Positions 23,767 through 40,052 of a stretch of 64,000 nucleotides of DNA are shown here, one piece after another. The notes under the pieces were generated by a model, which searched no databases, was not told the origin of the DNA, and saw nothing but the letters and a program-made list of their open reading frames with translations. A program made the translations under genes and the position numbers. The first letter of the stretch is position 1. Each line of letters starts with the position of its first letter. The DNA comes from Marivita geojedonensis (GTDB lineage Bacteria; Pseudomonadota; Alphaproteobacteria; Rhodobacterales; Rhodobacteraceae), in the NCBI RefSeq assembly GCF_002115805.1, contig NZ_JFKC01000001.1, positions 62,001 through 126,000 on the forward strand, read 5' to 3'.

Positions 23767-23785
23767 GTTTTGGTCCTCCGTGTTG

Positions 23786-23824: not shown

Positions 23825-24088
23825 ATTAGGTAGGTGCACAGTGCAGTGCTGCAAGGGACGGGAAAGAATAATTTGTGCAGATGGTTCCCCAGAAGAAATG
23901 AACGTTGGCCGCCGCTCTGCAAGAATCTTCCAGCCTCCGTTACCAACATGTTCTGACCCCGCCCGATGTGCTCAACGCCAATTGAATGAATTCGACTTTG
24001 CGAACCCCGTGCGCAAGATTCGGCTGGCATTGGCGCACATCTGGTCCAATTGTCGGGGTCATCCGCACAGCCGTCGGGATTGACGATC

Positions 24089-24505: not shown

Positions 24506-25513
24506 TCAGCGCCCGGTGCTCGATGTTCGGCAGACGAGTGATACGGGCGTCCGAAGAACCGCATCCGGACGGCGGCCCTCCTGAATCCATTCGAGCAGGT
24601 GATGGGCTGCGGTATGGGCGAGGTTTGGGATATCGCAACTGACCGACGACAAGGGCGGATGGCTGTCCTGGCAATCCTCGATATCATCAATGCCAATAAC
24701 CCGGAGGTCTTTTCCGACGCGGGGCCCGTGTTCCGAGCAGCCGGCCAAAAGGCCCAATGCGACCAGGTCGTTGAAACACAGCACGCCATCGACATCGCTG
24801 TATGTCTGCCGCAGCTTGGGTGCCATAGACCGCCCGAAACTGCGCGATGTCTCTCCGGTCAGCACAAGCGGTTCGATGTTTTCGTCTTTCAGGGCCGATA
24901 GGTAGGCGCTCATGCGTTCGCGCGTAACCGGTCGTTCCGGCAAGCCGCCCAGGAACGCGATGCGTTTGCATCCCTGGTCCATAAGGTGCCGCGTGGCAAG
25001 CGCGCTGCCGGTCTCGTAATCGGGGGCTATGAAGGGAACGCGGGAGCCCAGGACCTCGAGCCGTCGAAACACCTGGATCGTCGGCACGGCAGCTTTGTGC
25101 AACTCCGCGGCAATCGCATCTTCCTGACCATAAGCCGGGGACAGGATCAGTCCCGAAAGACCATGTTCGCAGAGCGACGCAATCGTTCGGTTCTGCAGTT
25201 CGGGATCTTCGTCCGTATTGGCAATGACGGTCGCGTAACCCTGTTCGGCCAGATACATTTGAAGCGAAGCTGCAAACTCGGTGAAAAAGGGGTTGCGCAG
25301 ATCGTTGATGACAAGCCCGATCAACCCGGACGATGCAGAGCGCAGAGTGGCGGCGGAGCGGTTGTAGACATAGCCGAGATCGCGCATCGCCTCCCGCACG
25401 ATCTCGCGGGTGCTGTCCTTCACGGTTTCGCTGCCCCGAACGACGAGCGAAACGGTCGATTTCGAAACGCCCGCCGCTTTTGCAACATCAAGTATGGTAG
25501 GGCGTCGGGCCAT
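24506..25513 (-). CDS. LacI-family transcriptional regulator
   Basis: A 335-residue LacI/GalR protein with an N-terminal helix-turn-helix (TILDVAKAAGVSKSTVSLVV, residues 6-25), the hinge helix region NRSAATLRS, and a periplasmic-binding-protein-like effector domain (IGLVINDLRNPFF onward, with GVLCFNDLVALGLL). It is the last gene of a long minus-strand run starting at 39987, so it is probably autoregulated. The run's promoter carries two TGGAACGTTCCA palindromes of LacI type; this protein is the natural candidate to bind them. The effector is probably a sugar or cyclitol, unproven. Confidence 0.88.
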   Translation of the reverse strand: MARRPTILDVAKAAGVSKSTVSLVVRGSETVKDSTREIVREAMRDLGYVYNRSAATLRSASSGLIGLVINDLRNPFFTEFAASLQMYLAEQGYATVIANTDEDPELQNRTIASLCEHGLSGLILSPAYGQEDAIAAELHKAAVPTIQVFRRLEVLGSRVPFIAPDYETGSALATRHLMDQGCKRIAFLGGLPERPVTRERMSAYLSALKDENIEPLVLTGETSRSFGRSMAPKLRQTYSDVDGVLCFNDLVALGLLAGCSEHGPRVGKDLRVIGIDDIEDCQDSHPPLSSVSCDIPNLAHTAAHHLLEWIQEGRRPDAVLRTPVSLVCRTSSTGR

Positions 25514-25521
25514 GTTACCTT

Positions 25522-26688
25522 TTACGTTTCTATCCCGTGTAGCGAAAGCAGGGTTCGCATGCGATGTTCCGCCAATTCCGGATTCAACAACAGTCGGGCG
25601 TCATCCGCCAGTCGGAAAACCGCCGCATAATGGGTGATTTCCCGGCTCGACTGGAAGCCACCCGGCATGATGAAATGGCTTTGAGCCCCGTTCAACCACG
25701 CGAGAAAGGCAATTCCCGCCTTGTAGAAACGTGTTGGCGCTTTGAAGATTTCGCGGCTGAGCGGGACGGTTGGGGCGAACAAGGCGTGGTATCGCGCGCT
25801 GTCGCCTTCCGCCAGTGCCTCAAGAGCCTGAGAGGCGGCAGGAGCGATGGCGGCAAAGATGCCGAGCAGCGCGTGACTGTAGCGCGTACCGTCGCCCTCG
25901 ATGAGTGGGGCATAATTGAAATCGTCGCCGGTATAGAGCCGCACCCCTCCGGGCAATCGCGCGCGGAAGGATTCTTCATGCCCCTGATCGAGCAGTGAAA
26001 TCTTTATGCCATCGACCTTGGCCGGGTTCTCGGCAATCAGACCGAGAACAAAATCGCTGGCCTGCGCCACATCTTTGGTTCCCCAGTAGCCTGCCAGCGT
26101 GGGGTCGAACATATCGCCGAGCCAGTGCAGGATGACAGGCTTTTCCGCCCCGTCGATCAGTGTGCGATACACTGTGTGGTAAGTCTCAGCCGGGGCGTTG
26201 ATCGCCGTGAAGGCGCGTGACGCCATCAGGATCAGTTGGCCGCCCACTGCTTCGATGGCTTCGGCCTGCTCTTGGTATGCGGCGAGGATCGCATTTGAGG
26301 AGGTGAGTTCGTCAAGGCCCCTGTGGTCGGTTCCTGCACCACAGGCAACCCTAGGCGCCAGAGGATGGGCTTTGGCAGCCGACATGGTCCGTTCGATCAG
26401 TTCTTTGGCTGTAAGCCAATCGACACCCATCCCGCGTTGCGCGGTATCCATGGCCTCTGCAAGGCCAAGGCCTTGATCCCACAGCCATGTGCGGAACGCG
26501 AGTGTCGCGTCCCAGTCGACTGCGGGCCGGGTGTCCCAGGGGTTCCGTTCGCGCAGAGGATCGCTCACGACATGAGCGGCGGCAAAGGCGGTGCGGGTCA
26601 GAGGCACTGTGGGCGGACGGGCTTCAAGCGGGTCGCCTTGCAGGGAGTAGCCGACAAGTTGGCCATCGGAGGTGGGTAGGTTCAGCAT
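25522..26688 (-). CDS. DUF993 family protein (dihydrodipicolinate-synthase-like)
   Basis: A 388-residue protein of the DUF993 group, related by fold to the DapA/N-acetylneuraminate-lyase TIM barrels. Visible pieces are CGAGTDHRGLDEL, QLILMASRAF, a conserved KPVILHWLGDMFDP, the stretch KVDGIKISLLDQGHEE (with a candidate Schiff-base Lys in IKIS) and GVRLYTGDDFNY. These suggest an aldolase or lyase acting on a keto-sugar or keto-acid. The exact reaction is not known to me. It sits between Dabb and lacI with gaps of 8-9 nt, so it belongs to the same operon. Confidence 0.75.
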   Translation of the reverse strand: MLNLPTSDGQLVGYSLQGDPLEARPPTVPLTRTAFAAAHVVSDPLRERNPWDTRPAVDWDATLAFRTWLWDQGLGLAEAMDTAQRGMGVDWLTAKELIERTMSAAKAHPLAPRVACGAGTDHRGLDELTSSNAILAAYQEQAEAIEAVGGQLILMASRAFTAINAPAETYHTVYRTLIDGAEKPVILHWLGDMFDPTLAGYWGTKDVAQASDFVLGLIAENPAKVDGIKISLLDQGHEESFRARLPGGVRLYTGDDFNYAPLIEGDGTRYSHALLGIFAAIAPAASQALEALAEGDSARYHALFAPTVPLSREIFKAPTRFYKAGIAFLAWLNGAQSHFIMPGGFQSSREITHYAAVFRLADDARLLLNPELAEHRMRTLLSLHGIET

Positions 26689-26697
26689 GTCAGGGCC

Positions 26698-27006
26698 TCA
26701 CACTTCGATGTCCAGAACGAGTATTCCGTCGATCCCACCGACGGCATTGGCGACCAGTTGCGCACCGAGAGCCTTGTGCTCTTCGTTCTCGGAATACGCC
26801 TGCAGAGCGGCCCAATCGTCAAAATCGATGACGAAGCCATGCATGTAACCGCGCTCGATTTGTTCGGGGCTCCGCGAGCGGCCACCCTTGAAGTCGCGCG
26901 CTCCGGGAAGGGTCACGGTAAGGTCGGCGAGTCCACGATAGATCTCTGAAACCTTTTCCTCGGGGGTCTCGGGTTTGAATTTGGTCAGGACGATATGGCG
27001 GATCAT
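26698..27006 (-). CDS. Dabb-family (stress-responsive A/B barrel) protein
   Basis: A 102-residue ferredoxin-like alpha/beta-barrel protein opening with MIRHIVLTKFKPETPEE, the classic Dabb start, with YMHGFVIDFDDWAALQAY as the second typical strand-helix. Dabb proteins are small dimeric barrels; some act as cyclases or decarboxylases and many have unknown roles in catabolic operons. The start overlaps the stop of the broken GMC gene by 4 nt. The DUF993-Dabb pairing suggests that the two act on the same intermediate. Confidence 0.8.
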   Translation of the reverse strand: MIRHIVLTKFKPETPEEKVSEIYRGLADLTVTLPGARDFKGGRSRSPEQIERGYMHGFVIDFDDWAALQAYSENEEHKALGAQLVANAVGGIDGILVLDIEV

Positions 27007-28582
27007 TTCAGATACCCTTGATCTTGCTTGATCATATCGGCGGCTTTTTCACCGATCATGATCGAGGGGGCGTTCGTATTGGACGAAACGACATTGGGCA
27101 TAATCGAAGCGTCCGCGATGCGCAGACCGTCGATGCCATTGAAGCGCAGCCGCAGGTCGAGCACCGCCTCGGCATCACTTCCCATGCGACAGGTACCTGC
27201 ACAGTGGTGCGACGTCTTGGAGTGAACGCAGATGAAGTTGAAGTAATCTTGATCAGACCGAACATCCGGCCCCGGCAGGCGCTCTGCAAGGATGAAGGGT
27301 TTCAACGCGTCCTGTGCCAGGATGTCCTGAACCAACTTCAAACCACGGATCGACATTTCGCGATCATATGGATCAGAGAGGTAGTTCGGATCGATGAGTG
27401 GCGCGTCCGCAGGATTGGCGCTTTTGAGCCGGACCGTGCCGCGGGATCGAGGACGCAGGTGGCAGGCGTTCAGGGTCACGCCGCCGTTTGGCATGGTCAC
27501 CACGCCAGCCTCGATACCGGTCCCAAGGCCGAGATGCATCTGAATGTCCGGCGAGCGTGCGGTCTCGTCAGCGTACCAGAAACCACCGGTTTCAAACAGG
27601 CTGGAGGCCACCGGTCCCTTGCGGGTGAACAGGTATTGCAGCGCGGCCCATGCGGAATTGTGCAGTTTGGCAAAGCGGTCATAGGTGTGAGGACCGGTCA
27701 CTTCGCAGATCGCATAGAGATCGAGGTGGTCCTGCAGATTTGCGCCCACTTGCCAACGTCGATCCCCAGAGCGCTGAGATCGTCAGCCGGTCCGATCCCC
27801 GAAAGCTGCAGGAGACGCGGCGAGCCTATAGCGCCGGAGGACAGGATCACTTCGCGGTCTGCGGTGATCCTTGTGCCGTCGACCATTTCAACACCGGTCG
27901 CACGCCCGTTTTCAACGATGATCCTACGCACGTGCGCCTTCATTTGGACGGTCAGGTTGGGGCGGGAACGGGCCGGTGCCAGAAATGCCATCGCCGCCGA
28001 GGACCGCCGCGCATTTCGCTGTGTGAGCTGGTAATATCCGGCACCGTCTTGCCTTGCGCCGTTTACGTCAGTGGTCGTGGGGATGCCAAGCTGCCCTGCC
28101 GCCTTGATGAAGGCATCACAGATTGGCAGAGGCGCCGCTGGCATCGACACGCCCAAAGGACCACCCTTTGCGTGATAGGTGCCGTCATAGGTGTCGTTGT
28201 CCTCGGATTTCCTGAAATACGGAAGGACCTCGTCGTAGCTCCACCCGTCGCACCCCATCTGGCGCCAATCGTCATAGTCCTGTGCGGCGCCCCGGGTGTA
28301 TATCTGCGCGTTGATCGCAGACCCCCCGCCAATCACCTTGGCTTGGGTATAGGGAAAATCCTTGCCCTGCATCGAGCGTTGCGGAACAGTTGTCCAACCC
28401 CAGGATCCGATGCCCTTGGTCATTTTGGCAAAGCCCGCAGGCAGGTGGAAAAACGGATGGCGGTCGCTGCCGCCTGCCTCAAGAAGCAACACCTGCGCGT
28501 CCGGCATCTCGCTCAGACGCGCTGCCACGACCGAGCCAGCGGACCCCCCGCCGATCACAATGAAATCGTATCCCCTACCCAT
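27003..28582 (-). pseudogene. GMC-family oxidoreductase (choline-dehydrogenase-like), frameshifted
   Basis: The two halves of one GMC flavoprotein lie in different frames. The 5' part (28582 to about 27755) has the FAD motif IGGGSAGSVVAARLSE and the GMC signature region. The 3' part (about 27749 to 27003) carries NLQDHLDLYAICEVTG, the catalytic SHHCAGTCRMGSD and the C-terminal N-containing loop. The frame changes near 27749-27755. Five bases (GGCAA) stand between GIDV and VGANLQDHL, where relatives have about six codons (usually ending LPG), so a deletion of about 13 nt is the likely cause. Together the halves match a normal length of about 530. It could be a true loss of function or an assembly error. 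Confidence 0.8.
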
Positions 28583-28591
28583 GTCGTTGTC

Positions 28592-29350
28592 TCACAGTCT
28601 CGGAATGGAAAGTCCGCCATCCACCGGGATCGTTGCCCCGGTGGCAAAGCGCATCTGGCCTTGGACAAGGGGCAGCACCACGTTCGCAATGTCCTGCGGC
28701 ATGCCCCAACGGGATGCCGGCACAAGACCGGCTTCGATACGGGCGGTATATTTGTCCTTCACACCCGCGGTCATCTCGGTCGCGATTATGCCCGGACGCA
28801 GTTCGAATACGCCGATGTCATGCGGGGCCAACCGGACCGCGAAGAGTTTGCTCATCATTGCTGCACCGGCCTTGGACATGCAGTATTCAGCACGTTCGAC
28901 AGAAGCCATCTCTGCGCTCACCGACGTCACGAAGACCATCGCGCGATAGGTGTCAGACGGTTTCTCCAGCATGCGCCGGGCCACCTCCTGAGACAGAAAG
29001 AACGCGCCACGGAGATTGACGTTCATGACCATATCGAAACCCGCTGGCTCCATATCGAGCATGTCACCCCGGACAGGTGCGCCGATGCCTGCATTGTTGA
29101 TCAGCGTGGTAACGGGCCCAAGCGTGGCCTCGACCTGATCGAGGAGTCCCGGGACCGCGGAAATGTCGGACACATCGTGCTGCACATAGAGCGCGGCATC
29201 ACCGAGACGCTCCAGAGCGCTGCGCACCGTCTGATCATCAAGTTTCGGCAGTGAGGCGATGACAATCCTGAACCCTGCACCAGCCAGGGTTTCGGCAATG
29301 GCAAAGCCGATGCCCTGCTGCCCACCGGTGATCAATGCGACGCCGCTCAT
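28592..29350 (-). CDS. Short-chain dehydrogenase/reductase (FabG-like)
   Basis: A 252-residue classical SDR with the cofactor motif TGGQQGIGFAIAE (TGxxxGIG), NNAG, the catalytic Ser in VTSVSAE, the Tyr/Lys pair YCMSK, and a C-terminal GATIPVDGG. It is annotated generically as 3-oxoacyl-ACP reductase-like, but the operon context favours oxidation of a sugar or polyol hydroxyl. ATG 29350 overlaps the GMC stop (ATGA); an open extension upstream lies within that gene. It is co-transcribed with its neighbours. Confidence 0.82.
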   Translation of the reverse strand: MSGVALITGGQQGIGFAIAETLAGAGFRIVIASLPKLDDQTVRSALERLGDAALYVQHDVSDISAVPGLLDQVEATLGPVTTLINNAGIGAPVRGDMLDMEPAGFDMVMNVNLRGAFFLSQEVARRMLEKPSDTYRAMVFVTSVSAEMASVERAEYCMSKAGAAMMSKLFAVRLAPHDIGVFELRPGIIATEMTAGVKDKYTARIEAGLVPASRWGMPQDIANVVLPLVQGQMRFATGATIPVDGGLSIPRL

Positions 29351-30846
29351 GCCGCAAACTCCGTCTCTCGGATGTGCCGCCCGGCGCGGAGGGCAAGTGC
29401 CGCAATCGTGAGCGCAGGGTTCACAGCCGCCGATGTGGGCAGGACAGACGCATCCACGATGAAAAGGTTTTGGTGATCGTGAGAACGACAGAACGTATCG
29501 ACGACACTGGATTGCGGATCTTTGCCCATCCGAGCTGTGCCGCATTGGTGCGACGGGGTTCTGCGGTCAAACGGCTTGGCGACTACAATCGGGAAACCCG
29601 CCTCGCGCAGCTTGGACTTGAGCAGCCTGACCAGCCCTTCATGCGCCGCCCAGTTCGACCGTTTCCAATCGAGCCTGATCTGACCATCCTTGAGCGTGAC
29701 GCGGCTTTCGGGATCCGGCAGATCTTCTGACATTGCGTAAAAATCGTAGCTGCGCGCGGCGATGATGTTTGCCAGCCAATTCGGCAAACCCGAACTCGCG
29801 GCCAAGATCGGCCCGGTAATCTTGCCCAGCATCTGTATGTTGCCGAGAGGTGCTGCGTTCTCATTGGCGCTGAGGTAGTAATCGTTGACCATGATCGTCT
29901 TTTGGTAGACCGAGCGGTTTTTCCTGAAAGGGTGCAGCGCGAGCACGGCCGAGCAATTGTGGTTCATGAAATTCCGCCCGACCTGATCGGAGCGGTTGGC
30001 AAGACCGTTCGGAGCGGCATCGCCTGCAGAGGCAAGGAGCAGAGCAGCGCTTTGCACAGCCCCGGCGGAAAGAACGACAAGACGCGGCGCCAGGCTCTTT
30101 TCCTCACCGTCTTGTTCATAGACCACGCGAGACACTCGTCCGTCGGCATCGGCAATTAATCGCGTGACGCGGCACTTGGTCATCAGGCTGACGTTGTCAT
30201 GGACCAATGCGGTTTTCAGGCTCCGGCTCTCTGCGTCCATCTTTCCGCCGCAGGTGTCGGGGAACGCGTCCCAGGTCGTTTGTCCGCCGGCCAACCAGCG
30301 GTCGAGATCGACACCCAATGGCAGGCTTGCGGGTGAGAGGCCGACACGGGCCAACCGCGCGCGTAGATCGGCTATGTCGGGTTCGTCCGGGACAGCCGTG
30401 TGCGGATACTGTCCGGAATGAGGCGGTTCGGTTGGATCTTCTCCAAGCGTTCCACGTACTGCGAAGAACTCTTCTGCCGCTTGGTAATCCGGTTCAAGCT
30501 CTGCATAGGAGATGGGCCACCCAGGCGTGGAGCCGCCCAGGTGTTGGAGCACTCCAAAGTCTTCCGCGCGGTACCGGATCAGGACCGCGCCGTAAAACTT
30601 CGAATTTCCGCCGACATTGTAGTAGTTTCCCGGATTGAAGGGCTTGTTTGCCCCATCGAGCCAGGTCTCTTCGGGACGAAACACGCCATTGCCAAAAATC
30701 GCCTGCGCATCGCGATCATACCGGGACGGTGCCAGCCTGTCGCCGCGCTCAAGGATCACGATCCTTCGGCCAGTCGGCGCAAGCGCCGCAGCGATTGTCG
30801 CGCCGCCCATGCCCGAGCCAATGATGACAATGTCAGCAGACGTCAT
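29347..30846 (-). CDS. GMC-family FAD-dependent oxidoreductase
   Basis: A 499-residue GMC flavoprotein with an N-terminal FAD motif IGSGMGGATIAAAL and the Glu of VILERGD. The middle holds the NVGGNSKFYGAVLIRY FAD-attachment-like region. The catalytic His region is PSHQCGTARMG, and the final loop AAVNPALTIAALALR carries the second catalytic residue. It is distinct from the broken choline-dehydrogenase-like GMC nearby and closer to sugar or polyol-oxidising members. No signal peptide is seen, so it should be cytosolic. It overlaps both neighbours by 4 nt. The substrate is unknown. Confidence 0.82.
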   Translation of the reverse strand: MTSADIVIIGSGMGGATIAAALAPTGRRIVILERGDRLAPSRYDRDAQAIFGNGVFRPEETWLDGANKPFNPGNYYNVGGNSKFYGAVLIRYRAEDFGVLQHLGGSTPGWPISYAELEPDYQAAEEFFAVRGTLGEDPTEPPHSGQYPHTAVPDEPDIADLRARLARVGLSPASLPLGVDLDRWLAGGQTTWDAFPDTCGGKMDAESRSLKTALVHDNVSLMTKCRVTRLIADADGRVSRVVYEQDGEEKSLAPRLVVLSAGAVQSAALLLASAGDAAPNGLANRSDQVGRNFMNHNCSAVLALHPFRKNRSVYQKTIMVNDYYLSANENAAPLGNIQMLGKITGPILAASSGLPNWLANIIAARSYDFYAMSEDLPDPESRVTLKDGQIRLDWKRSNWAAHEGLVRLLKSKLREAGFPIVVAKPFDRRTPSHQCGTARMGKDPQSSVVDTFCRSHDHQNLFIVDASVLPTSAAVNPALTIAALALRAGRHIRETEFAA

Positions 30847-31955
30847 GGAACGATACGGTTCTTGCTGGCGGGGTCGAACGCCACTGCCTTTTCCATGTTG
30901 ACCGCAAAGGTGAAATCCGCGCCGGGACGCACTTCGGCATCCGAACGCATCCTGGCAATGACGTCCTTGCCCCCGAGGGTCATCGATACGAAGGTGTCGG
31001 ACCCTGCAGGTTCGGTCACAACGATCCGATTGGTCAGATGTGCAATGTTGGATGACTTGCGGTCCGCTGCATCCTCGTCGGTGATCGTCTCGGGGCGAAT
31101 ACCGAGCAGAATGTCCCGACCCTCCCAGGCAGCGAGATTGTCCTGACTGAAAGGCAACTCGGCAAGACTGCCATCATGCAGCGCGACCTCCGCGACGGGG
31201 CGACCGTTTGCCAGCCGCACGGTTGCGGGGACCACGTTCATCGCAGGCGACCCCATAAAGGTCGCCACGAAGATATTCGCGGGGGTGTCGTATATCTCCT
31301 GAGGGGTTCCGAGTTGCTGAACGTAGCCGCCGTTCATCACCGCAATGCGTGTCGACAGGGTCATGGCTTCGATCTGGTCATGCGTCACATAGACTATCGT
31401 GGTGCCGAGGTTCTGATGCAGTTTCTTGATCTCGGTGCGCATGTCGACGCGCAACTTTGCGTCGAGGTTCGAAAGCGGCTCGTCGAAGAGAAAGACATCC
31501 GGGTTGCGGACCAGAGCGCGCCCCATCGCCACGCGCTGGCGCTGCCCACCGGAGAGAGCGCCGGGCTTACGGTCAAGCAGTTGTTCAATCTGCAGGAGCT
31601 TGGCCACATCATGCATGGCCTTCTCGCGCTCGGCCTTCGGTGTCCCATGCATTTCAAGGCCAAAGGTGATGTTTTGGCCAACGGTCATGTTCGGGTAAAG
31701 CGCATAGCTCTGGAACACCATTGCGATGTTGCGCTTTGACGGGTGCACGCCGTTCATCACCACATCCTTGATGCGGATCTCACCTGAGGTGATGTCTTCA
31801 AGCCCGGCGATCATGTTGAGCAGCGTGGACTTGCCGCACCCAGAAGGCCCAACCAGGACGAGAAACTTACCCTCTTCCACAGAGATGTCCACCTTGTGCA
31901 GCACTTCGACCGCGCCATAGGATTTGGTGGTGTTGTCGATGTCGAGAAAGCCCAT
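30843..31955 (-). CDS. Sugar ABC transporter ATP-binding protein (UgpC/MalK type)
   Basis: A CUT1-family ATPase of 370 residues with Walker A GPSGCGKST, signature LSGGQRQR, Walker B VFLFDEPLSNLDA, and the switch His in VTHDQ. A C-terminal TOBE/MalK-like regulatory domain starts near residue 235 (LGIRPETI). It energises the two permeases upstream in the operon. Such ATPases import mono- or oligosaccharides, polyols or glycerol-3-P; the name UgpC is only a family label. It overlaps the GMC gene by 4 nt. Confidence 0.9.
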   Translation of the reverse strand: MGFLDIDNTTKSYGAVEVLHKVDISVEEGKFLVLVGPSGCGKSTLLNMIAGLEDITSGEIRIKDVVMNGVHPSKRNIAMVFQSYALYPNMTVGQNITFGLEMHGTPKAEREKAMHDVAKLLQIEQLLDRKPGALSGGQRQRVAMGRALVRNPDVFLFDEPLSNLDAKLRVDMRTEIKKLHQNLGTTIVYVTHDQIEAMTLSTRIAVMNGGYVQQLGTPQEIYDTPANIFVATFMGSPAMNVVPATVRLANGRPVAEVALHDGSLAELPFSQDNLAAWEGRDILLGIRPETITDEDAADRKSSNIAHLTNRIVVTEPAGSDTFVSMTLGGKDVIARMRSDAEVRPGADFTFAVNMEKAVAFDPASKNRIVP

Positions 31956-31960
31956 GGCGT

Positions 31961-32842
31961 TTATCCTTTGACTGATCCAGCCATCAGACCGCGCACGAAG
32001 TAGCGGCCGGCGACGATGTAAACGAGAAGTGTGGGAAGAGCGGCGAGGATCGCGCCTGCGAAATGGACGTTGTATTCCTTCACGCCCGTGGACGATTGCA
32101 CGAGGTTGTTCAGCGCCACCGTCATTGGAGCGCCATCCCCACTGGCGAAGGACGCCCCGAACAGGAAGTCATTCCAGATGTTGGTGAACTGCCAGATGAT
32201 GCAGACGACAGCGATTGGTCCGGAGCTTGGCAGAAGAATCCGCCAGAAGATCTTGAAGAAACTCGCACCATCAATCTGGGCGGCACGCACAAGTTCAGTC
32301 GGAAACACCGCGTAGTAGTTGCGGAAATAGAGCGTCGAAAAACCGATCCCGTAAACGACGTGGACCAGCACGAGACCAGAAGCCGTTCCCGCCAGCCCGA
32401 GGAAACCGAGGACGGCCGCCATCGGGATGAGCACGATCTGGAACGGGATGAAGCAGGCGAACAGCATCAGGCCGAAGAGGATCGTATCATACCTGAAGCG
32501 CCATTTGGTCAGCACATAACCATTCAACGCACCAAGGATCGTCGAAATCGCAACAGCGGGAACGACCATCGAGATGGAGTTCCAGAAATAGGGTTTCAGC
32601 CCTGTCGGCTCCACCCCGATCTGCGCGGTGGACCAAGCCTTGAGCCATGGCTCGATCGTCCAGACCTCGGGAAGCGCCATCATGCCTCCACCGGTGATCT
32701 CGGACAGCGGCTTCACCGAGTTCACGAGCATGACGTAAAGCGGCAGCAGGTAGAACAGCGCAAAAAGCAACAGGAAGAGATAGATCAGAACCCGAACCGC
32801 GCGCCCTGTGCGGATTGCGGTGTCTTGCATGGCGACGGACAT
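31961..32842 (-). CDS. Sugar ABC transporter permease (MalG type)
   Basis: A 293-residue permease with six transmembrane segments and the EAA-like cytoplasmic loop RAAQIDGASFFKIFWRILLP, which contacts the ATPase. The N-terminus is a short cytosolic tail then YLFLLLFALFYLLPLYVMLVN. It pairs with the MalF-type permease, with which it shares a TGATG junction at 32842-32844; a GTG at 32845 is an alternative start. Part of the operon's CUT1 importer. Confidence 0.88.
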   Translation of the reverse strand: MSVAMQDTAIRTGRAVRVLIYLFLLLFALFYLLPLYVMLVNSVKPLSEITGGGMMALPEVWTIEPWLKAWSTAQIGVEPTGLKPYFWNSISMVVPAVAISTILGALNGYVLTKWRFRYDTILFGLMLFACFIPFQIVLIPMAAVLGFLGLAGTASGLVLVHVVYGIGFSTLYFRNYYAVFPTELVRAAQIDGASFFKIFWRILLPSSGPIAVVCIIWQFTNIWNDFLFGASFASGDGAPMTVALNNLVQSSTGVKEYNVHFAGAILAALPTLLVYIVAGRYFVRGLMAGSVKG

Positions 32843-33759
32843 CACTTCTTCTCCCTCAATTCGGCGTAGAGGTAGGGAATCATAATGGCTGCGATGGTCA
32901 TCAGCATGATGACAGCCGAGGACGCACCGATGCCCATTTGATTGCGACTGAATGTGTAGGAATACATGAAGGTCGCGGGCAGTTCGGTTGCGCGGCCCGG
33001 ACCGCCGCCGGTCAGAGCGATCACGAGGTCAAACGTCTTGATCGCAAGATGGCTGAGGATCACGAAGGCCGACAGGAACGCAGGCCGCAGCTGTGGAATG
33101 ATGATGCGGCGATAGAGGTTCCAGTTCGATGCCCCGTCCATCTGCGCGGCTTTGAGGATCTCGTTGTCGATGCCGCGCAGCCCGGCAAGGAACATCGCCA
33201 TGACAAAACCCGAGGTTTGCCAGACTGCTGCAAGAACCACCGTATAGATCGCGTAGTCGCGGTTTTTGATCCAATCGAATTCGAAGCTCGTCCAGCCCCA
33301 GCTTTGCATGACATTCTCGAGCCCGATACCCGGGTCAAGGAACCACTTCCATGCTGTGCCGGTGACGATGAAGCTCAGTGCCATCGGATAGAGGTAGATG
33401 GTGCGCAGCGCGCCTTCTGCGCGGATCTTCTGATCCAGAAAGATTGCGAGTCCGAGGCCAAGGCAGGTGCAAATGCCGATATAGAGGCCGGCGAAGGTGG
33501 CCATGTTCCAAAGAGAAATTTCCCAGTGGGACAGGCTGAAGAGCTTCTCGTAGTTGGAGAAGCCGATGAGTTCCAGCGTCCTTTGTCCGTCATTGTTGAC
33601 GAATGGAAGGATCCGACTGTCCGTGAACGAGACGTAAACCGTGAAAAGGATGAAACCGTAGACAAAGATCAGGACCATCGCGAGAGACGGCGACAGAACA
33701 AGTTTGGGAAGCCAGTTTTGCAGGCGCGTTTGGAAATCCGCCTCAGTCCGAGCCGACAT
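32842..33759 (-). CDS. Sugar ABC transporter permease (MalF type)
   Basis: A 305-residue CUT1 permease with about six transmembrane segments, an N-terminal helix at about 20-42 and the EAA loop LKAAQMDGASNWNLYRRIIIPQL. It forms the translocation pore with the MalG-type partner. A 70-nt gap with a UUCG hairpin separates it from the broken binding-protein gene upstream, a usual place to adjust binding protein versus permease levels. Confidence 0.88.
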   Translation of the reverse strand: MSARTEADFQTRLQNWLPKLVLSPSLAMVLIFVYGFILFTVYVSFTDSRILPFVNNDGQRTLELIGFSNYEKLFSLSHWEISLWNMATFAGLYIGICTCLGLGLAIFLDQKIRAEGALRTIYLYPMALSFIVTGTAWKWFLDPGIGLENVMQSWGWTSFEFDWIKNRDYAIYTVVLAAVWQTSGFVMAMFLAGLRGIDNEILKAAQMDGASNWNLYRRIIIPQLRPAFLSAFVILSHLAIKTFDLVIALTGGGPGRATELPATFMYSYTFSRNQMGIGASSAVIMLMTIAAIMIPYLYAELREKK

Positions 33760-33800
33760 GCGCGATCCCCCTCTTCAGGATGCCATTTCAGAGTGTGTGA

Positions 33801-33818
33801 GGCGGCCCGAAGGCCGCC
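33801..33818 (-). promoter_or_regulatory. UUCG-capped hairpin between binding-protein and permease genes
   Basis: On the minus strand the sequence is GGCGGCC-TTCG-GGCCGCC, a perfect 7-bp GC stem with a C(UUCG)G tetraloop. No T-run follows, so it should not terminate fully. It fits an mRNA-stabilising or read-through-limiting hairpin that keeps binding-protein mRNA above permease mRNA. Confidence 0.7.
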
Positions 33819-33829
33819 CCACGGGAGGA

Positions 33830-35080
33830 TCACTTGGCGATCGAGACGGCGTCGACCAATTCTGCGACAGCTGTTTCGCTGTCATACTCGCCGTTGAAAT
33901 GCGCCGTGATGACATCGAGGATCGCGTTCTTGACCCCGGCCGGGTTCGCGTGACCATGGGCCATCGAACCGAACAGGTTGCCCGACGCGTTGGCCGCTGC
34001 GAGATCTGCAATGCCCTTTTTACCACATGCGTCAAACGCTTCGTCCGACACATCGGTGCGCGCCGGAACAGAACCTTTCACCACGTTGAACGCAGACTGG
34101 AAAGACGGAGACAGGATCGCAGATGCAAGCGCCGCCTGCTCCTCGGACACCGAGCCGCCCTGATCGAACATCATGAATTGGTCAGCGTTGAACGTGACCT
34201 GATCCTGCGTTCCCGGGAAACGGAAGCACAGGAAGTCTTCGTCCGGGGTTTTGCCGGCATTCAGGAATTCGCCCTTTGCCCAGTCGCCCATCATCTGGAA
34301 TGCCGCTTCGCCGTTGATGACCATCGCCGTGGCGAGGTTCCAGTCCCGGCCCGCGAAGTTTTCATCCACGTAGTTGCGCAGCGTGTTCATACGATCGAAA
34401 GCTTCCTTCATCGTATCGGAACCAAGCGCCTCTTCGTCCAGATCAATGAAAGCTGCCTTGTAGAACTCCGGGCCTCCGGTCGACATCGCGATTGCGTCGA
34501 AAACGGTGGCCTCCTGCCAGGCCTGACCACCTCAGGCAATCGGAATGACTCCGGCTGCCTTCAAGGTGTCGAGCGCAGCGACGAACTCATCCCAGGTCTG
34601 CGGGACAGCAACGCCATTTGCATCGAGCACGGCCTTGTTTGCCCAGACCCAGTTGGTCGAGTGCACGTTTACCGGCGCGGAGATCCACTTGCTGTCCCAC
34701 TTGGCGAAGAACTGCAGCGCTTCAGGAACCACTGCATCCCAACCCTCGCGCGCGGCCACCTCGTTGAGGTCGGCAAGAGCGCCTTGCTTGCCCCAGTCAA
34801 GAACGTCGAAGCCCAGCGCCTGAACGGCGGTCGGGGCATCACCGGACGCAACGCGGGCGCGGAGAACGGTCATTGCCTGCTCACCGCCGCCGCCAGCGAC
34901 CGGCATGTCCATCCAGCCCACGCCCTGCGCCTCAAGATCCTCCTTGAGCACGTTGAGGGCCGCCGCTTCGCCGCCCGAGGTCCACCAGTGCAGAACCTCC
35001 ACATCCTCTGCCTGTGCTGCACCGCCGCTGATCATCAGCGCCAGCGCCATTGCCGTCTTGGTCTTCATTATCGAACGCAT
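33830..35080 (-). pseudogene. Sugar ABC transporter substrate-binding protein, interrupted by in-frame TGA
   Basis: A CUT1 extracellular binding protein that would be 416 residues. The signal peptide ([20 protein letters not shown]) and the mature start [13 protein letters not shown] are normal, and an RBS GGGAGGA precedes ATG 35080. Codon 183 is TGA (34534-34532) in an otherwise continuous frame. The protein reads VIPIA[15 protein letters not shown], where relatives carry a sense residue before GGQ.W. Everything downstream to the natural end is intact. A single nonsense change (for example from CGA, TGG or TTA) is the simplest account; sequencing error or read-through is possible. Without this protein the importer should not work. 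Confidence 0.85.
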
Positions 35081-35118
35081 CTCAGTCCTCCCAGTTGCAT
35101 TCAGTTGGTTGCCCGCGC

Positions 35119-36645
35119 CTATTCTGCGCGCGGAGTGACCCAAGGTGCGCGGCTGTCGCGTCCTACGCGCATCACCACGGATTTCACCTCAAGGAATTCC
35201 TCAAAGCCGTATTTTCCGATTTCTCGTCCGGTGCCCGATTGTTTCATCCCGCCGAAAGCCAGTTCGGGATAACCATCCATCCAGGTGTTGGTCCAAACCG
35301 TCCCTGCCTGCGCACGCCGTGCAAATTCGAGACATGTATGGACGCTTTCGCTCCAGACCCCGGCCGAGAGTCCGTATTCGCTGTCGTTGGTCAGCGCGAT
35401 GGCGTCATCCAGTGTTCTGAATGTGAGCACCGAAAGGACGGGGCCGAATACCTCTTCCCGTGCCACCGCCATGTCGGCGGACACGGAACTGATGACCGTC
35501 GGTTGGTAGAACTGATCTCCCAAACCTTCGACATCGAGATACGCACCGCCCAGCTCCAGACGGGCTCCTGCGGCAACGGCCTCCTGCACATAGCCGTCGA
35601 TCCGGGCGTTGTGCTCTGGCGTGACGATGGCCCCGACCTGCGTGGTCGGATCCAGAGGATCTCCGAACTTCACCTTTTTGGAAAGCGCAACGACGCGGGC
35701 TACAAAATCCTCGGCGATATCCTCGTGGACGATGATCCTGCTGGACGAGTTACAGCACTGACCCACGTTGAAATAGACGCCGAAGGTCACTGCATCTGCC
35801 GCGTTCTCCAGATCCGCATCCGGGAATATGACCTGAGGGTTCTTTCCGCCCAACTCGAGCGCGACCTTCTTCAGCGTGTCGGAAGCTGCCTTGGTGATGA
35901 GTTTGCCCACCGCTGTGGAACCCGTGAACGTCACCATGTCGACGTCCGGGTGCGTCGACTTCAGACTGCCCACGGGGTCACCATATCCAAGGACGATATT
36001 GCACACGCCAGCGGGCAGTCCTGCCTGCATCAACAACTCGCCCATCATGACGGTCGATGAAGGCGTCATTTCCGAAGGCTTCACAACGACAGTGCACCCC
36101 GCAGCCAAGGCAAACGGAAGTTTCTGGCTGAGGATCCAAAACGGGAAATTCCAGGGTGTGATGACAGAGACCACTCCGATGGGGTCCTTCACGACAACAC
36201 CGAGCATGTCACTTCCAAGAGTGTTGTGGCTGTCGCCCTGCGACGTGCGTGCCAGCGCAGCCGCGTAGCGCCACAGGTCCGCGGCGCCGGCGACCTCGCC
36301 TTTGGACTGCGAAATCGGTTTGCCGCTTTCGAGCGTTTCCTGAAGTGCGATGCGATCGACATTGGCCTCGATCAGATCAGCCACCCGTAGAAGGACCGCC
36401 GCGCGTTCGCGTCCGGAAATGCGGCTCCAGATGCCAGCGTCGAAAGCCCGGCGTGCCGCCTTGATGGCGGCGTCTGTCTCTTCCGGGCCACCCTTGGATG
36501 AGGTGCTGACCACAGTTCCATGGGACGGAGACACCCGATCGAACGTCTCTCTGCCAGTGACCCAGGCTCCGTCGATCAGATGCCGCCCGGTAAATGGCTG
36601 GGGCAACTCGTATGCGATGGACGTGTTTATGCTGAGGTCATTCAT
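35119..36645 (-). CDS. NAD(P)-dependent aldehyde dehydrogenase
   Basis: An ALDH-superfamily enzyme of 508 residues close to betaine-aldehyde or gamma-glutamyl-type dehydrogenases. Motifs are the catalytic-pocket Asn in ITPWNFPFW, the nucleotide loop [11 protein letters not shown], the general-base Glu in [14 protein letters not shown], and the catalytic Cys at residue 298 in [11 protein letters not shown]. The C-terminal [12 protein letters not shown] is typical. It would oxidise an aldehyde formed in the pathway to an acid, possibly feeding the adjacent CoA-transferase. Gaps: 38 nt to the binding-protein gene downstream and 5 nt to the hydratase upstream. Confidence 0.88.
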
Positions 36646-36650
36646 GTGGA

Positions 36651-37418
36651 TCAGAACCCGGTAAAATCTGCAGTGCGTTTGTTCAGAAAAGCATCGACGC
36701 CTTCGTTCCGATCATCGGATGAGGCAGCCGCGGCACTGGCGAGCGCTTCGATGCCTGCTGCGGCATCCTCGCCGCGCGCCGCATGGATCATGCTCTTGGC
36801 CAGTTCATTCGCCCGAGGCGAGACATCTTTAAGCGACGCTGCAATCTCCCTTGCCACGGAAAGCGTATCCTCTGCGACCTCGGCCACGAATCCAAAACCA
36901 AGTGCCCGGTCCGCAGTGAGGCGGCGGCCAAAGAGAGCAAGCTCTTTGAGTACAGGTTCGGGCATCAGACGTGCGACGCGTTGCGTCCCGGACCATCCGG
37001 GGACGATGCCGACCCTGGCTTCGGGAAGCGCGAGTGTTGCGTGCGGGGTCATGACCCGTATGTCGCAGCACGCTGCAAGCTCGAGCCCTCCGCCGAAAGC
37101 ATGACCATTGAGTGCGCCGATTGTCGGTTTGCCGAGCCGTGCCAGCCGGTCGAAGACGCGGTGGCCGCTCCGCACCCAATCCCGTGCAAATGCGGACGGG
37201 GTCATAGGCCCCCACTCCGAGATATCCGCCCCGCAGCAAAATGCCTTGGACCCGGCGCCGGTTACCACAAGTGCGCGCAGATCGGGATTTGCCTCGACCG
37301 CATCGCAATACTCGGCAATCTGGCGCAGCATTCCCATGGTCAGGGCATTGAGCCTGGACTCGTTTTCGAGCCGCATCACAGCCAGAGAACCGTCATATGT
37401 CAGCGTGACATTGCTCAT
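36651..37418 (-). CDS. Enoyl-CoA hydratase/isomerase (crotonase fold)
   Basis: A 255-residue crotonase-family protein. The CoA oxyanion-hole stretch is AFCCGADISEWG, and both hydratase glutamates are present: one in GGGLELAACCDI and one in LPEARVGIVPGWSGTQR. This supports true hydratase-type chemistry, although ring-cleaving or retro-Claisen members share the fold. The ATG overlaps the CoA-transferase stop by 4 nt, so a CoA ester made by that enzyme is the likely substrate. Confidence 0.85.
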   Translation of the reverse strand: MSNVTLTYDGSLAVMRLENESRLNALTMGMLRQIAEYCDAVEANPDLRALVVTGAGSKAFCCGADISEWGPMTPSAFARDWVRSGHRVFDRLARLGKPTIGALNGHAFGGGLELAACCDIRVMTPHATLALPEARVGIVPGWSGTQRVARLMPEPVLKELALFGRRLTADRALGFGFVAEVAEDTLSVAREIAASLKDVSPRANELAKSMIHAARGEDAAAGIEALASAAAASSDDRNEGVDAFLNKRTADFTGF

Positions 37419-38986
37419 AGTTCGAGCCCCATCGGCGCTTCCGCCAGAAGCGATTTCGGCATCACACGCGCATTTTCCGCCACTCGAACATGTCCACCGG
37501 ACGCAGCGACGATATGCGCTTCAGGGTCGATACCCGGCATGATCTCGGTTGCAACAAGACCGTTTCCGGTCAGTTCGATGACGCAGCGCTCGGTCACGTA
37601 GAGCACGTTCTGCCCCTGCTCACGCGCACGGCGACCGGAGAATGTCACGTGCTCCACCTCATCGACCATCTTGGTGAATTTGCCGGGGGCGGCGATGTGG
37701 ATTCCGTTTTCGGTCAACTCGATCTGGGCTCCAGCCTCGAACCAACCCGAAAAGACGATTTTTCTGGCATGGGCCGTAATGTCGACAAAGCCACCGCATC
37801 CCGCAGTCAGATAGGGTTTCTTGCCCAGCTTCGAGACATTCACGTTGCCCTCGACATCAACTTCGAGGAACGACAGGAAGGACACGTCAAAGCCTGCGCC
37901 CTGGAAATAGATGAATTGCTGTGGCGAGGGTACGAAGGCGTCCGCATTGGATGCGCAGCCGAATGCGAAACCCGTCAGAGGCACGCCCCCGACGGCCCCT
38001 TGTTCAATCGCCCAGGTGACGGCATCCGGATGACCTTCCTCGAGCAGAATCCGCGGCACCATGGCCGAGATCCCGAAACCCAGATTGGCGGTCATTCCCC
38101 GCTTGAGTTCCTGCGCAGCGCGCCGGGCGATGACCTTTTCCACGCCATGCTCCGCGTGAGAGAAACTGTCCCACGGACGCATGATCTCACCCGAAATCGC
38201 CGGATCGTACTGAGTTTCGGTTGTTTGCTTCTGGTTCGGATCGACGACAACGCAATCTACAAGGTGACCGGGCACCCGGACCTCATGCGGACGCAGGCTG
38301 CCATTCGCCGTGATACGTTTGACCTGAGCGATTACCAGACCGCCATTGTTGCGCACGCAGATGGCCTGTTCGAGGCCACCAAGATAAGCGCCTTCATGTT
38401 CATAGGTGAGATTGCCGCGTTCATCTGACGTGGTGGCGCGGATGATGGCGACGTTTGGCGTTATGTTGGGGAAATGGAGCCAGGTATCTCCGCCAAATTC
38501 CACACGGCTGACAATCGGGGATGCTGCGCCTTTGTCGTTCATCGCGCAGCCTTGCCGCTTGGGATCGACGAAGGTTTCAAGACCTACCTTGGTCAATACA
38601 CCGGGACGATGCGCGGCGGCTTCTCGGTGCATGTCGAACATGATCCCGGAGGGGACGTTATACGCGGCAACCCGATCTTCGACGATCATCTTCCAGATCT
38701 CGGGCATCGCGACACTCGACGGCCCGGACGGATAGGACCCCGCCAGAACGCGGGACAGAAGACCATCCTTTGCAATGTGGTCCATGCCCTTCACGCCGTA
38801 GACGTCTCCGGCCGCAATGGGATGCAGCGCGGTAATGGCTCTGGGATGGCCCTCGGCGTCAAAACGCGCACCAATCGCCTTGAGAACTGCGTCGGGGCAG
38901 CCGAGGGATGACGAGGACGACACCGAAACGACTGCGCCATCCGGAATCCGGCAGACCGCGTCCTGAACCGAAACGACTTTGCTCAT
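37415..38986 (-). CDS. Acyl-CoA:acetate/3-ketoacid CoA-transferase, fused alpha-beta
   Basis: A family I CoA-transferase of 523 residues with both halves in one chain, as in YdiF and propionate CoA-transferase. The predicted catalytic Glu is E328 in WAIEQGAVGGVP, the position aligned with the glutamyl-CoA-forming residue of propionate CoA-transferase. The oxyanion region in the C-half has the usual GFAFGCASNADAF shape. It would activate a short organic acid from the pathway using acyl-CoA. It overlaps the Gfo/Idh gene upstream (4 nt) and the hydratase downstream (4 nt). Confidence 0.85.
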   Translation of the reverse strand: MSKVVSVQDAVCRIPDGAVVSVSSSSSLGCPDAVLKAIGARFDAEGHPRAITALHPIAAGDVYGVKGMDHIAKDGLLSRVLAGSYPSGPSSVAMPEIWKMIVEDRVAAYNVPSGIMFDMHREAAAHRPGVLTKVGLETFVDPKRQGCAMNDKGAASPIVSRVEFGGDTWLHFPNITPNVAIIRATTSDERGNLTYEHEGAYLGGLEQAICVRNNGGLVIAQVKRITANGSLRPHEVRVPGHLVDCVVVDPNQKQTTETQYDPAISGEIMRPWDSFSHAEHGVEKVIARRAAQELKRGMTANLGFGISAMVPRILLEEGHPDAVTWAIEQGAVGGVPLTGFAFGCASNADAFVPSPQQFIYFQGAGFDVSFLSFLEVDVEGNVNVSKLGKKPYLTAGCGGFVDITAHARKIVFSGWFEAGAQIELTENGIHIAAPGKFTKMVDEVEHVTFSGRRAREQGQNVLYVTERCVIELTGNGLVATEIMPGIDPEAHIVAASGGHVRVAENARVMPKSLLAEAPMGLEL

Positions 38987-39987
38987 TCCGGCGCTCCGTA
39001 TTCGATGGCCACCTTTCGGCCCGTCTGCGCGGCCTCGCGAACTGCCAATGCCACGGCCAGAGACTTGATCCCATCGGACCCCGACGCGGCCGGGGCGCCT
39101 TGACCCTTCACCGCTGCCGTAAAGTCAGCAACGCCCTGGACATATAGAGAGTGGTCCGAACAGGGGATTTCGCGCCTTCCCTCTGCCGTTACCAGGGTCA
39201 CGGAACCCACCGGCATCTGGGTCATGACCCCGGACGCAAAGATTGAACCCATGGTACCGTGCACTTCGAAACCCGTGCCGGCGAATGGATGAGTGAAACT
39301 TTCGTGGGACATGACCATGGCCCCTGAGGGCATTGACCAGACCGACATACAGCTATCCTCAACGCCGCGCCCCATGCCGGACTGCGCCATCTGAGCAACA
39401 ACATCCACCGGGTCTTCACCAAGTAGAAAACGCGCCACATCTGCGTCATGCACGGTGATGTCGGGAATCACTCCGCCACCTGCCGTGGCATCATTGATCC
39501 GCCAGCCCTGAAGGTTCTCCGGCAGGTGCACGGCGTGGTGAATCCGCAGCGAAAGAACTTTCCCAATCTGTCCCGATTGGATGATGTCGCGAACTGCGCG
39601 ATGCGTACCGGAACAGCGCAGATGGTGATTGGTGCCGAAGACCAGACCTTTCGCCTTCGCCGCGCCCACCATCTCATGGGCTTCTGCCAGGGTCATACCG
39701 AGCGGCTTTTCACACAGCACATGCTTGCCAGTTGCAATCGCCGCCATGGCCTGATCATGGTGCTTTTCATTTGTCGACGAAATGTACACACACGCCGGAC
39801 CCTTATCGGAAAGAGCCTCCGCAAGATCGGCGGTGCTATTGGCTATACCGTGCTCGTCAGCCCATTTCGCCGTCCGGTCCCCCGATCCGCTGACGATCCA
39901 GGTCACGTCGCTACCGGCCTGAGCGCGCACCGCTGAGATCATGTGCTGCGAGGCAATAGTGCTGGCACCGACAAAGATCCACTGCAT
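38983..39987 (-). CDS. Gfo/Idh/MocA-family oxidoreductase
   Basis: A 334-residue NAD(P)-dependent dehydrogenase of the glucose-fructose oxidoreductase/inositol dehydrogenase type. It has an N-terminal Rossmann start IFVGASTIASQHM, the catalytic-Lys motif HVLCEKPLGMTL, and the later substrate-site HDADVARFLLG with a typical His/Asp pair. It is the first gene of the 15.5-kb operon. ATG 39987 is preferred because GGAG lies 9 nt upstream; ATG 40002 would leave the RBS inside the gene. It likely oxidises a sugar or cyclitol, or reduces a keto-sugar. The substrate is unknown. Confidence 0.83.
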   Translation of the reverse strand: MQWIFVGASTIASQHMISAVRAQAGSDVTWIVSGSGDRTAKWADEHGIANSTADLAEALSDKGPACVYISSTNEKHHDQAMAAIATGKHVLCEKPLGMTLAEAHEMVGAAKAKGLVFGTNHHLRCSGTHRAVRDIIQSGQIGKVLSLRIHHAVHLPENLQGWRINDATAGGGVIPDITVHDADVARFLLGEDPVDVVAQMAQSGMGRGVEDSCMSVWSMPSGAMVMSHESFTHPFAGTGFEVHGTMGSIFASGVMTQMPVGSVTLVTAEGRREIPCSDHSLYVQGVADFTAAVKGQGAPAASGSDGIKSLAVALAVREAAQTGRKVAIEYGAPE

Positions 39988-40006
39988 CGCCCGATTCTCC
40001 ATAATA

Positions 40007-40018
40007 TGGAACGTTCCA
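40007..40018. promoter_or_regulatory. LacI-type operator O1
   Basis: TGGAACGTTCCA, a perfect 12-bp palindrome with the central CG typical of LacI-family operators. It lies just downstream of the predicted -10, over the likely transcription start, and 20 nt ahead of the Gfo/Idh start codon. Confidence 0.75.
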
Positions 40019-40023
40019 AAAGT

Positions 40024-40052
40024 TAATTACTGGAACGTTCCATATTTGACAA
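40024..40052 (-). promoter_or_regulatory. Predicted promoter of the catabolic operon
   Basis: On the minus strand TTGTCA (40052-40047) and TAATTA (40029-40024) are exactly 17 nt apart, upstream of the Gfo/Idh start at 39987. The -35 is good and the -10 is weak, as expected for a regulated promoter. One operator fills the spacer and a second lies just downstream of the -10. Confidence 0.55.
40031..40042. promoter_or_regulatory. LacI-type operator O2
   Basis: A second exact copy of TGGAACGTTCCA, inside the spacer between the predicted -35 and -10. It is 24 bp centre-to-centre from the first copy. Two identical palindromes at a single promoter make a regulatory role very likely; the LacI protein at 24506-25513 is the best candidate ligand. 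Confidence 0.78.

Follow-up and report, generated by a model that had tools for sequence, protein, structure and literature searches.

Organization and conservation of the operon

The window, a 64,000-nucleotide stretch of DNA from Marivita geojedonensis, contains a run of 14 genes that all lie on the minus strand, from position 39987 down to 24506, and that we examined as a catabolic operon. In order, they encode a Gfo/Idh-family protein, assigned below as a 1,5-anhydro-D-fructose reductase (AFR) orthologue, a fused CoA-transferase, an enoyl-CoA hydratase (crotonase), an aldehyde dehydrogenase (ALDH), the solute-binding protein (SBP), two permeases, and ATPase of a CUT1 transporter, a first GMC-family oxidoreductase (GMC1), a short-chain dehydrogenase/reductase (SDR), a second GMC protein (GMC2), a Dabb-domain protein, a DUF993 protein, and a LacI-family protein. 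For gene 1 we used the start at 39987; the open reading frame program gives 40002. An earlier reading of the window, made from its letters without database searches (the sequence-only reading), had described a single-strand run ending in LacI with gaps mostly below 10 nt or 4-nt overlaps. Coordinates and gene families bear this out: neighbors overlap by 4 nt or are separated by 5 to 9 nt, except for 38 nt between ALDH and SBP and 70 nt between SBP and permease.

The operon is strongly conserved and does not represent a chance run. Named genomes were scanned with the window DUF993, and the best 80 of 180 relatives were retained as named loci. Homologues of the operon genes are colocated in these loci and, on contigs of sufficient length, follow the same order in nearly all cases. 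Counting only loci on such contigs, GMC2 was kept in 75/76, SDR in 74/75, GMC1 in 69/71, the ATPase in 68/70, the permeases in 67/69 and 66/68, SBP in 63/65, and LacI in 74/76. Values were lower for ALDH (54/64) and Dabb (60/80). The ALDH genes scored as missing include those of L073, L080, L085, L100, L101, and L104, where additional sequence between the permease and ATPase genes moves the expected place past the flank; ALDH is lacking in L076, L102, L114, and L134. The 20 loci scored as lacking Dabb may take in Dabb proteins of less than 40% identity. Next after LacI, 41 of 70 loci have a glycerate kinase gene (identities of 33 to 77%).

Relatives of the operon occur in Ruegeria, Tabrizicola, Rhizobium, and other genera. 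All 14 genes and a glycerate kinase are present in Peteryoungia. On Sinorhizobium meliloti pSymB the order is LacI, AFR, CoA-transferase, enoyl-CoA hydratase, ALDH, SBP, permeases, ATPase, GMC1, SDR, GMC2, and glycerate kinase; from AFR to GMC2 it equals that of the window, no Dabb is listed, and DUF993 is divergent. Among plasmid records, this DUF993 type was found in three (74 to 77% identity); the remaining 144 are separated from these by a gap, none of them reaching 60%. Two loci, L076 and L114, hold CoA-transferase, enoyl-CoA hydratase, GMC1, SDR, GMC2, Dabb, DUF993, LacI, and glycerate kinase, with no AFR, ALDH, or CUT1 genes found; in L076 a divergent DHA2-type major facilitator superfamily (MFS) gene lies upstream. 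Because ALDH and CUT1 genes are also missing there, these two may use an intermediate from further down the pathway.

The first enzyme and the substrate class

Gene 1 (38983 to 39987, minus strand) has AFRs as its nearest solved proteins, 2glx with 338 bits and 4koa with 328 bits, whereas the next kind of protein reached 91 bits. Lys94, Asp176, and His180, which we take to be the catalytic residues of AFR, are conserved in the window protein as well as in 20/20 aligned matches. This and the following residue counts refer to aligned matches in loci of at least 9 kb, a few of which were entered twice (e.g., L153 and L161). By these matches gene 1, previously read as a plain Gfo/Idh gene, is an orthologue of the Sinorhizobium AFR and not a generic family member.

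According to a 2025 review (PMC12441222), aerobic Rhizobiaceae reduce 1,5-anhydro-D-fructose (AF) to 1,5-anhydromannitol (AM). The next published step given there is C1 hydroxylation of AM, giving mannose, by a P450-like enzyme that has yet to be identified; an analogous oxidative route for 1,5-anhydroglucitol (AG) is said in the review not to have been described, and the gut route for these substrates is anaerobic and relies on glycyl-radical enzymes.

The orthology of gene 1 points to a particular class of substrates and speaks against the cyclitol that the sequence-only reading had considered; with the inositol 2-dehydrogenase profile, gene 1 scored only 129.5 bits (cutoff, 355). Levoglucosan was rejected as well, the NCBIfam profile of levoglucosan dehydrogenase giving 88 bits against a cutoff of 650. 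On sequence grounds, the 1,5-anhydrohexitols AG, AF, and AM are very probably the substrates. The broader part of the earlier proposal, in which the operon serves the catabolism of a sugar-like compound that is not phosphorylated, enters through CUT1, and is oxidized to keto forms, is supported.

Fifty named genomes with this DUF993 type were tested, and 48 of them contained AFR. Linkage was also evaluated in a family sample consisting of one genome per genus of the window's family (n = 248), with at most eight candidates scored per genome. DUF993 occurred in 54 genomes, AFR in at least 21, and both in at least 17 (Fisher P = 1.8e-9, uncorrected for kinship); the AFR count may be an undercount because of the limit on scored candidates. 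In 12 of the 17 genomes with both, the two genes lay on the same contig within 16 kb, and in the other five on different contigs. A class-wide sample (n = 385) contained DUF993 in 35 genomes, AFR in 5, and both in 2.

AFR relatives also occur in other surroundings. A Bradyrhizobium plasmid (L162, 14001 to 16667) carries AFR and a GMC1 relative with an MFS gene nearby, the rest of the operon being absent in the stretch read; the pair would fit an epimerization of AG to AM via AF. AFR matches were found in 11 Bradyrhizobium plasmid records. On a Komagataeibacter plasmid (L164, 4240 to 7438), a 43% AFR relative stands beside an MFS transporter and a fumarylacetoacetate-hydrolase-family gene, perhaps another pathway ending.

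Other enzymes of the operon

Two genes after AFR point to CoA-ester chemistry. The CoA-transferase (37415 to 38986, minus strand as all genes below) consists of two fused domains of the YdiF/FadX type, is nearest YdiF (2ahu, E = 3e-94), and keeps E328, presumably the active-site glutamate, in 22/22 aligned matches. The crotonase (36651 to 37418), recognized by its family match, keeps E113 and E133 in 22/22, which we assume to be the two catalytic glutamates. It is followed by ALDH (35119 to 36645, family match), which may convert a C6 aldehyde to the acid.

Uptake would be provided by SBP (33830 to 35080), permease 1 (32842 to 33759), permease 2 (31961 to 32845), both assigned by family match, and a UgpC/MalK-type ATPase (30843 to 31955; PRK11650, 450 bits; cutoff, 432). 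The SBP of an intact relative is nearest 4r2b and other sugar-binding proteins, including the glucose-binding 2b3b.

Of the oxidoreductases, GMC1 (29347 to 30846) is nearest flavin adenine dinucleotide (FAD)-dependent glucose and fructose dehydrogenases and is a candidate AG 2-dehydrogenase; H433 and N476 are kept in 83/83 aligned matches. The SDR (28592 to 29350, family match) keeps Y156 and K160 in 82/82. These four residues are presumably catalytic. GMC2 (27003 to 28582) is choline dehydrogenase-like, an intact relative being nearest choline dehydrogenase, a chloramphenicol-inactivating oxidoreductase, and alcohol oxidases. Choline dehydrogenase and alcohol oxidases act on primary alcohols, and GMC2 is proposed as a C6 primary-alcohol oxidase. 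The Dabb-domain protein is encoded at 26698 to 27006.

DUF993 (25522 to 26688) is listed by Pfam as a family of unknown function with a solved structure, 4dnh. An AlphaFold2 model of the window protein (mean pLDDT, 81) retrieved 4dnh first in Foldseek, followed by dihydrodipicolinate synthases and N-acetylneuraminate lyases, with target TM scores of 0.72 to 0.80 among the matches listed. The modeled protein thus has the (beta/alpha)8 fold of DapA and N-acetylneuraminate lyase, which supports the earlier suggestion that DUF993 is likely a C-C-cleaving enzyme. K229 is kept in 127/127 aligned matches and lies in the strand counted as the sixth. Placement of K229 on the DapA lysine by hhalign against the organism's own DapA failed (probability, 0.5; not significant); on the basis of its motif, the order of strands, and the fold, it is a candidate Schiff-base lysine.

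In the class sample, a Gfo/Idh gene and an isomerase-type gene stood near DUF993 in 25 of 35 stretches. An enolase-family dehydratase was found in 15 of the 35, a CoA-transferase in 2, and both together in none (chance expectation, about 0.9; the L043 stretch ends before the expected position of the CoA-transferase). This distribution hints that an enolase-type dehydratase may replace CoA-transferase and crotonase at other DUF993 loci. The neighbors also fit a cleaving enzyme for deoxy-keto acids.

A proposed pathway

The sequences themselves show the gene families, the AFR orthology, the conservation, the linkage to the operator, and the exchange of SDR and DUF993 for a KDG-kinase-like gene (the last two are described below); each reaction of the following route is one that we infer. 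A 1,5-anhydrohexitol would be taken up by the CUT1 transporter. GMC1 would oxidize AG at C2 to AF, and the AFR orthologue would reduce AF to AM. GMC2, together with ALDH where it is present, would convert the C6 primary alcohol of AM to an acid, which would be 2,6-anhydro-D-mannonate because mannitol is symmetric. The CoA-transferase would turn this acid into its CoA thioester, and the crotonase would remove C5-H and C4-OH to yield an enol ether. Hydration of the enol ether at C5, perhaps with Dabb, would open the ring to give 2-keto-3-deoxy-D-gluconate (KDG); Dabb might help in ring opening or tautomerization. The SDR would then oxidize KDG, and DUF993 would split the product into pyruvate and glycerate, the latter entering central metabolism through glycerate 2-kinase. 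In an alternative ending, DUF993 would aldol-cleave KDG directly to pyruvate and glyceraldehyde.

The stereochemistry would be compatible with this scheme. C4-OH and H5 share one face, and C4 would have the L configuration with respect to the C6 thioester that a crotonase needs. Fischer bookkeeping gives D-erythro KDG from AM but not from AG, which would explain the initial epimerization of AG to AM.

As judged from sequence, the proposal is uneven in strength. KDG is the probable product of the middle section. The whole scheme, an aerobic catabolic pathway for 1,5-anhydrohexitols via a C6 acid, a CoA ester, KDG, and DUF993, stands at about an even chance, and the CoA-dependent ring opening as drawn falls just short of that. 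That the operon encodes a new aerobic AG/AM route, one that needs neither an oxygenase nor a radical enzyme to open a cyclic ether and runs through a crotonase-made enol ether to KDG, followed by cleavage to pyruvate and glycerate by DUF993 and SDR, we propose tentatively, at somewhat less than an even chance. Formation of pyruvate and glycerate by SDR and DUF993 is more tentative still, and the roles drawn for these two proteins, a KDG dehydrogenase feeding a C-C lyase for KDG or oxidized KDG, are candidates.

Exchange of SDR and DUF993 for a KDG-kinase-like gene

KDG had been predicted as the product, with DUF993 cleaving it directly, before AFR operons without an adjacent DUF993 were examined; glycerate kinases near several DUF993 genes had already been seen. 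Two such genomes, G394 and G464, carry AFR, CoA-transferase, enoyl-CoA hydratase, ALDH, GMC1, GMC2, Dabb, and LacI, and lack both SDR and DUF993. They have PfkB kinases whose best family is KDG kinase (KdgK), with 230 and 263 bits against 104 and 107 for the runner-up. KdgK was also the best family for the kinases of a second AFR locus in G619 and of a Rhizobium CCGE532 plasmid (252 and 250 bits), and across all four loci the runner-up family reached 104 to 125 bits. The solved protein nearest the G464 kinase is a 2-dehydro-3-deoxygluconokinase. Dabb is present in operons of the KDG-kinase type at 54 to 60% identity; only SDR and DUF993 are exchanged.

No KDG-kinase match was found within 40 kb of the 12 same-contig AFR and DUF993 loci, nor in the window's own genome at E 1e-30. 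A KDG-kinase-like gene was adjacent in 3/3 DUF993-less AFR loci (G394, G464, and the second G619 locus) versus 0/12 (P = 0.002). This Fisher test left out G409 and G577, whose contigs end near the operon (the only kinase match of G409, 44%, is on another contig), and CCGE532, which came from another collection. G070, G339, and G340 (AFR of 51, 48, and 42%) showed no such operon in the stretches read, the G339 contig being 3.3 kb long.

The exchange bears on the order of steps. Because CoA-transferase and hydratase are retained in DUF993-less operons alongside a KDG-kinase-like gene, cleavage most likely comes after the CoA steps; formation of the CoA ester after cleavage, as in the sequence-only reading, is probably the wrong order. 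The SDR would act late, since KDG-kinase-type operons lack it but retain Dabb and the CoA genes. Oxidation by SDR followed by DUF993 cleavage to pyruvate and glycerate is favored over direct cleavage because a glycerate kinase gene adjoins in 41 of 70 loci and ends the S. meliloti operon and because the G394 and G464 operons, with their KDG-kinase-like genes, have neither SDR nor DUF993.

In DUF993-less AFR operons we also noticed a flavoprotein of about 690 to 710 amino acids (L207, 9014 to 13146; L208, 376 to 3762; L166, 3059 to 6021; L212, 13738 to 18015).

Operator sites, flanking genes, and state of the window copy

Two perfect palindromes of the LacI operator type, TGGAACGTTCCA, were identified by exact-site scan just upstream of gene 1, a proximal one at 40007 to 40018 and a distal one at 40031 to 40042. 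They are the only sites in the window at one mismatch or less; 0.12 sites were expected by chance, and two were reached in 1 of 100 shuffles. Both are also the sole exact sites in the 4.31-Mb genome. Among 15 genomes scanned, 11 have the palindrome directly in front of AFR, whereas the reversed pattern, used as a control, gave one site in the M. geojedonensis genome and none in the other 14. Further sites accompany the KDG-kinase-like genes: the only other two in G464 precede the run Gfo, flavoprotein, and KDG kinase, and the third in G619 precedes the KDG-kinase-like gene. In G409, three sites sit between the flavoprotein and Gfo genes.

The LacI-family protein of the operon (24506 to 25513, family match) is the presumed regulator. 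The earlier claim of a single promoter for all 14 genes draws only indirect support from the two palindromes just upstream of gene 1. In an article on LacI regulons (PMC4052901), a term look-up of the main text found neither "anhydro" nor "afr."

Directly upstream of the operon, a tRNA-Lys (ttt) gene occupies 40245 to 40320 of the minus strand. A metal uptake set comprising a ZnuA-like binding protein, an ATPase, and an ABC-3 permease follows the operon on the same strand (20930 to 24108).

Two genes of the window copy are damaged. SBP contains an in-frame TGA (34534 to 34532) where 67/67 aligned relatives with more than 60% identity, drawn from the 80 named loci, have a His codon. GMC2 is split by a frameshift near 27750 into pieces at 27698 to 28582 and 27003 to 27749. 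Because of this damage, the copy of this strain may be inactive or decaying, or the draft assembly may contain errors. At E 1e-20 the genome has a single glycerate kinase match (G000:C29:352-1587, L230; 37% identity), and this too reads through one TGA.

Alternative explanations

Several observations weigh against the proposed pathway. Chemically, crotonases normally add water at the beta carbon, while ring opening needs the alpha carbon (C5), and Dabb, not found next to DUF993 in 20 of the 80 loci, is without a step in the route. AFR also reduces other 2-keto-aldoses, and the identity of about 50% between the window protein and S. meliloti AFR does not prove specificity. AFR is missing in two of the 50 genomes (L076 and L114), and 37 of the 54 DUF993 genomes of the family sample, with at most eight candidates scored in each, gave no AFR match. 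The hhalign comparison of DUF993 with DapA was, as stated, not significant. All four kinases, at 230 to 263 bits, remain below the curated NCBIfam KdgK cutoff of 400 bits. The second G619 locus is limited to AFR, CUT1 genes, LacI, and the kinase, without CoA-transferase, crotonase, ALDH, or GMC genes, and a DUF993 operon lies elsewhere in this genome. In CCGE532, another plasmid encodes a different DUF993 (52.7%), and several genes of the AFR operon look broken. KDG-kinase-type operons further hold the fumarate-reductase-like flavoprotein and, in some cases, a levoglucosan-dehydrogenase-like Gfo protein, both outside the proposed route. Among the 15 genomes scanned, G418 and G611 have no exact TGGAACGTTCCA site, G489 has one elsewhere and not at AFR, and G450 carries eight exact copies, none upstream of its own AFR. 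Finally, the published route runs from AM to mannose (PMC12441222).

This published chemistry offers a different account of the operon, in which an oxygenase encoded elsewhere hydroxylates AM at C1 to give D-mannose and the CoA genes serve another compound. The review credits the C1 hydroxylation to 2006 work on Sinorhizobium morelense (PMC12441222), and P450 genes are indeed present in 21 of 22 AFR genomes tested. However, the window genes include none, and neither do the annotated operons of Peteryoungia and S. meliloti; G577, 93% complete, has no P450 match, and in all 22 genomes a single match, that of G394, falls within 15 kb of AFR on the same contig, about 12 kb off and outside the operon. 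C1 hydroxylation would also leave CoA-transferase, crotonase, ALDH, GMC2, and DUF993 without a job in spite of their linkage to AFR, and we consider it quite improbable as the function of this locus. For the same substrates, the ring might instead open through beta-elimination of a 3-keto intermediate; SDR or GMC1 would then act on C3, Dabb would be the eliminase, and the CoA enzymes would handle an acid at a later stage. Such an elimination is known for levoglucosan, and Gfo/Idh and isomerase-type families are known from 3-keto sugar chemistry. Their presence near DUF993 in 25 of the 35 class-sample loci speaks for this mechanism if Dabb stands in for the isomerase, as it could. Since no isomerase-type gene is among the 14 and the KDG-kinase-type operons place the SDR late, we regard this mechanism as unlikely.

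Two further accounts change the substrate. AFR might reduce a different 2-keto sugar, for example glucosone or some other osone, in which case the operon would serve an oxidized hexose and not an anhydrohexitol. The S. morelense enzyme reportedly reduces several osones to manno-aldoses, and SBP resembles sugar-binding proteins, one of them glucose binding. An aldose product, however, would by our reasoning need no ring-ether chemistry, CoA ester, or crotonase, which makes this a remote prospect. The sequence-only reading had a cyclitol or free sugar oxidized and cleaved by DUF993, with a fragment becoming the CoA ester. The DapA-superfamily fold of DUF993 agrees with the cleavage. The AFR orthology of gene 1 speaks against such substrates, and the DUF993-less operons with their CoA genes and KDG-kinase-like gene indicate CoA chemistry independent of DUF993 cleavage, so we consider this account very remote.

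Relation to known systems

AG, a blood sugar of humans, ranks among the chief polyols of the human body, and its 6-phosphate is at the root of the neutropenia seen in glycogen storage disease Ib (GSD-Ib) and G6PC3 deficiency. The operon supplies candidates for the later steps of oxygen-requiring anhydro-sugar breakdown in Ruegeria, Tabrizicola, Rhizobium, and other genera, and a testable role is proposed for DUF993. If true, the route would represent a CoA-dependent way to open a sugar ether.

The proposed ending resembles the archaeal nonphosphorylative Entner-Doudoroff tail, which consists of a DapA-superfamily KDG aldolase, an aldehyde dehydrogenase, and glycerate 2-kinase. In both, a DapA-fold lyase and glycerate 2-kinase would act on KDG. 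The operon differs in that DUF993 is a separate, bacterial family with an SDR partner and in that KDG would derive from an anhydro-sugar acid. Levoglucosan catabolism also employs a Gfo/Idh enzyme on an anhydro sugar, although the window protein stays far below the levoglucosan dehydrogenase cutoff (88 versus 650 bits).

The sequence-only reading knew of no described pathway with this gene set. The set as a whole was not found in the literature searched, mostly at the level of titles and abstract beginnings, but its first step is known (PMC12441222). AF catabolism in S. morelense (Kuhn, Yu, and Giffhorn, 2006, as cited in PMC12441222) shares the first enzyme, an orthologous AFR making AM. As summarized in that review, it continues by C1 hydroxylation to mannose with a P450-like enzyme, whereas the window operon has no oxygenase gene and would oxidize C6, load the acid on CoA, and open the ring to yield KDG. 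The anaerobic AG/AM pathway (Ma et al., as cited in PMC12441222) acts on the same substrates through a phosphotransferase system and the glycyl-radical enzymes YbiW/PflD; neither a phosphotransferase nor a glycyl-radical gene is among the 14 genes, and the products of the two pathways differ.

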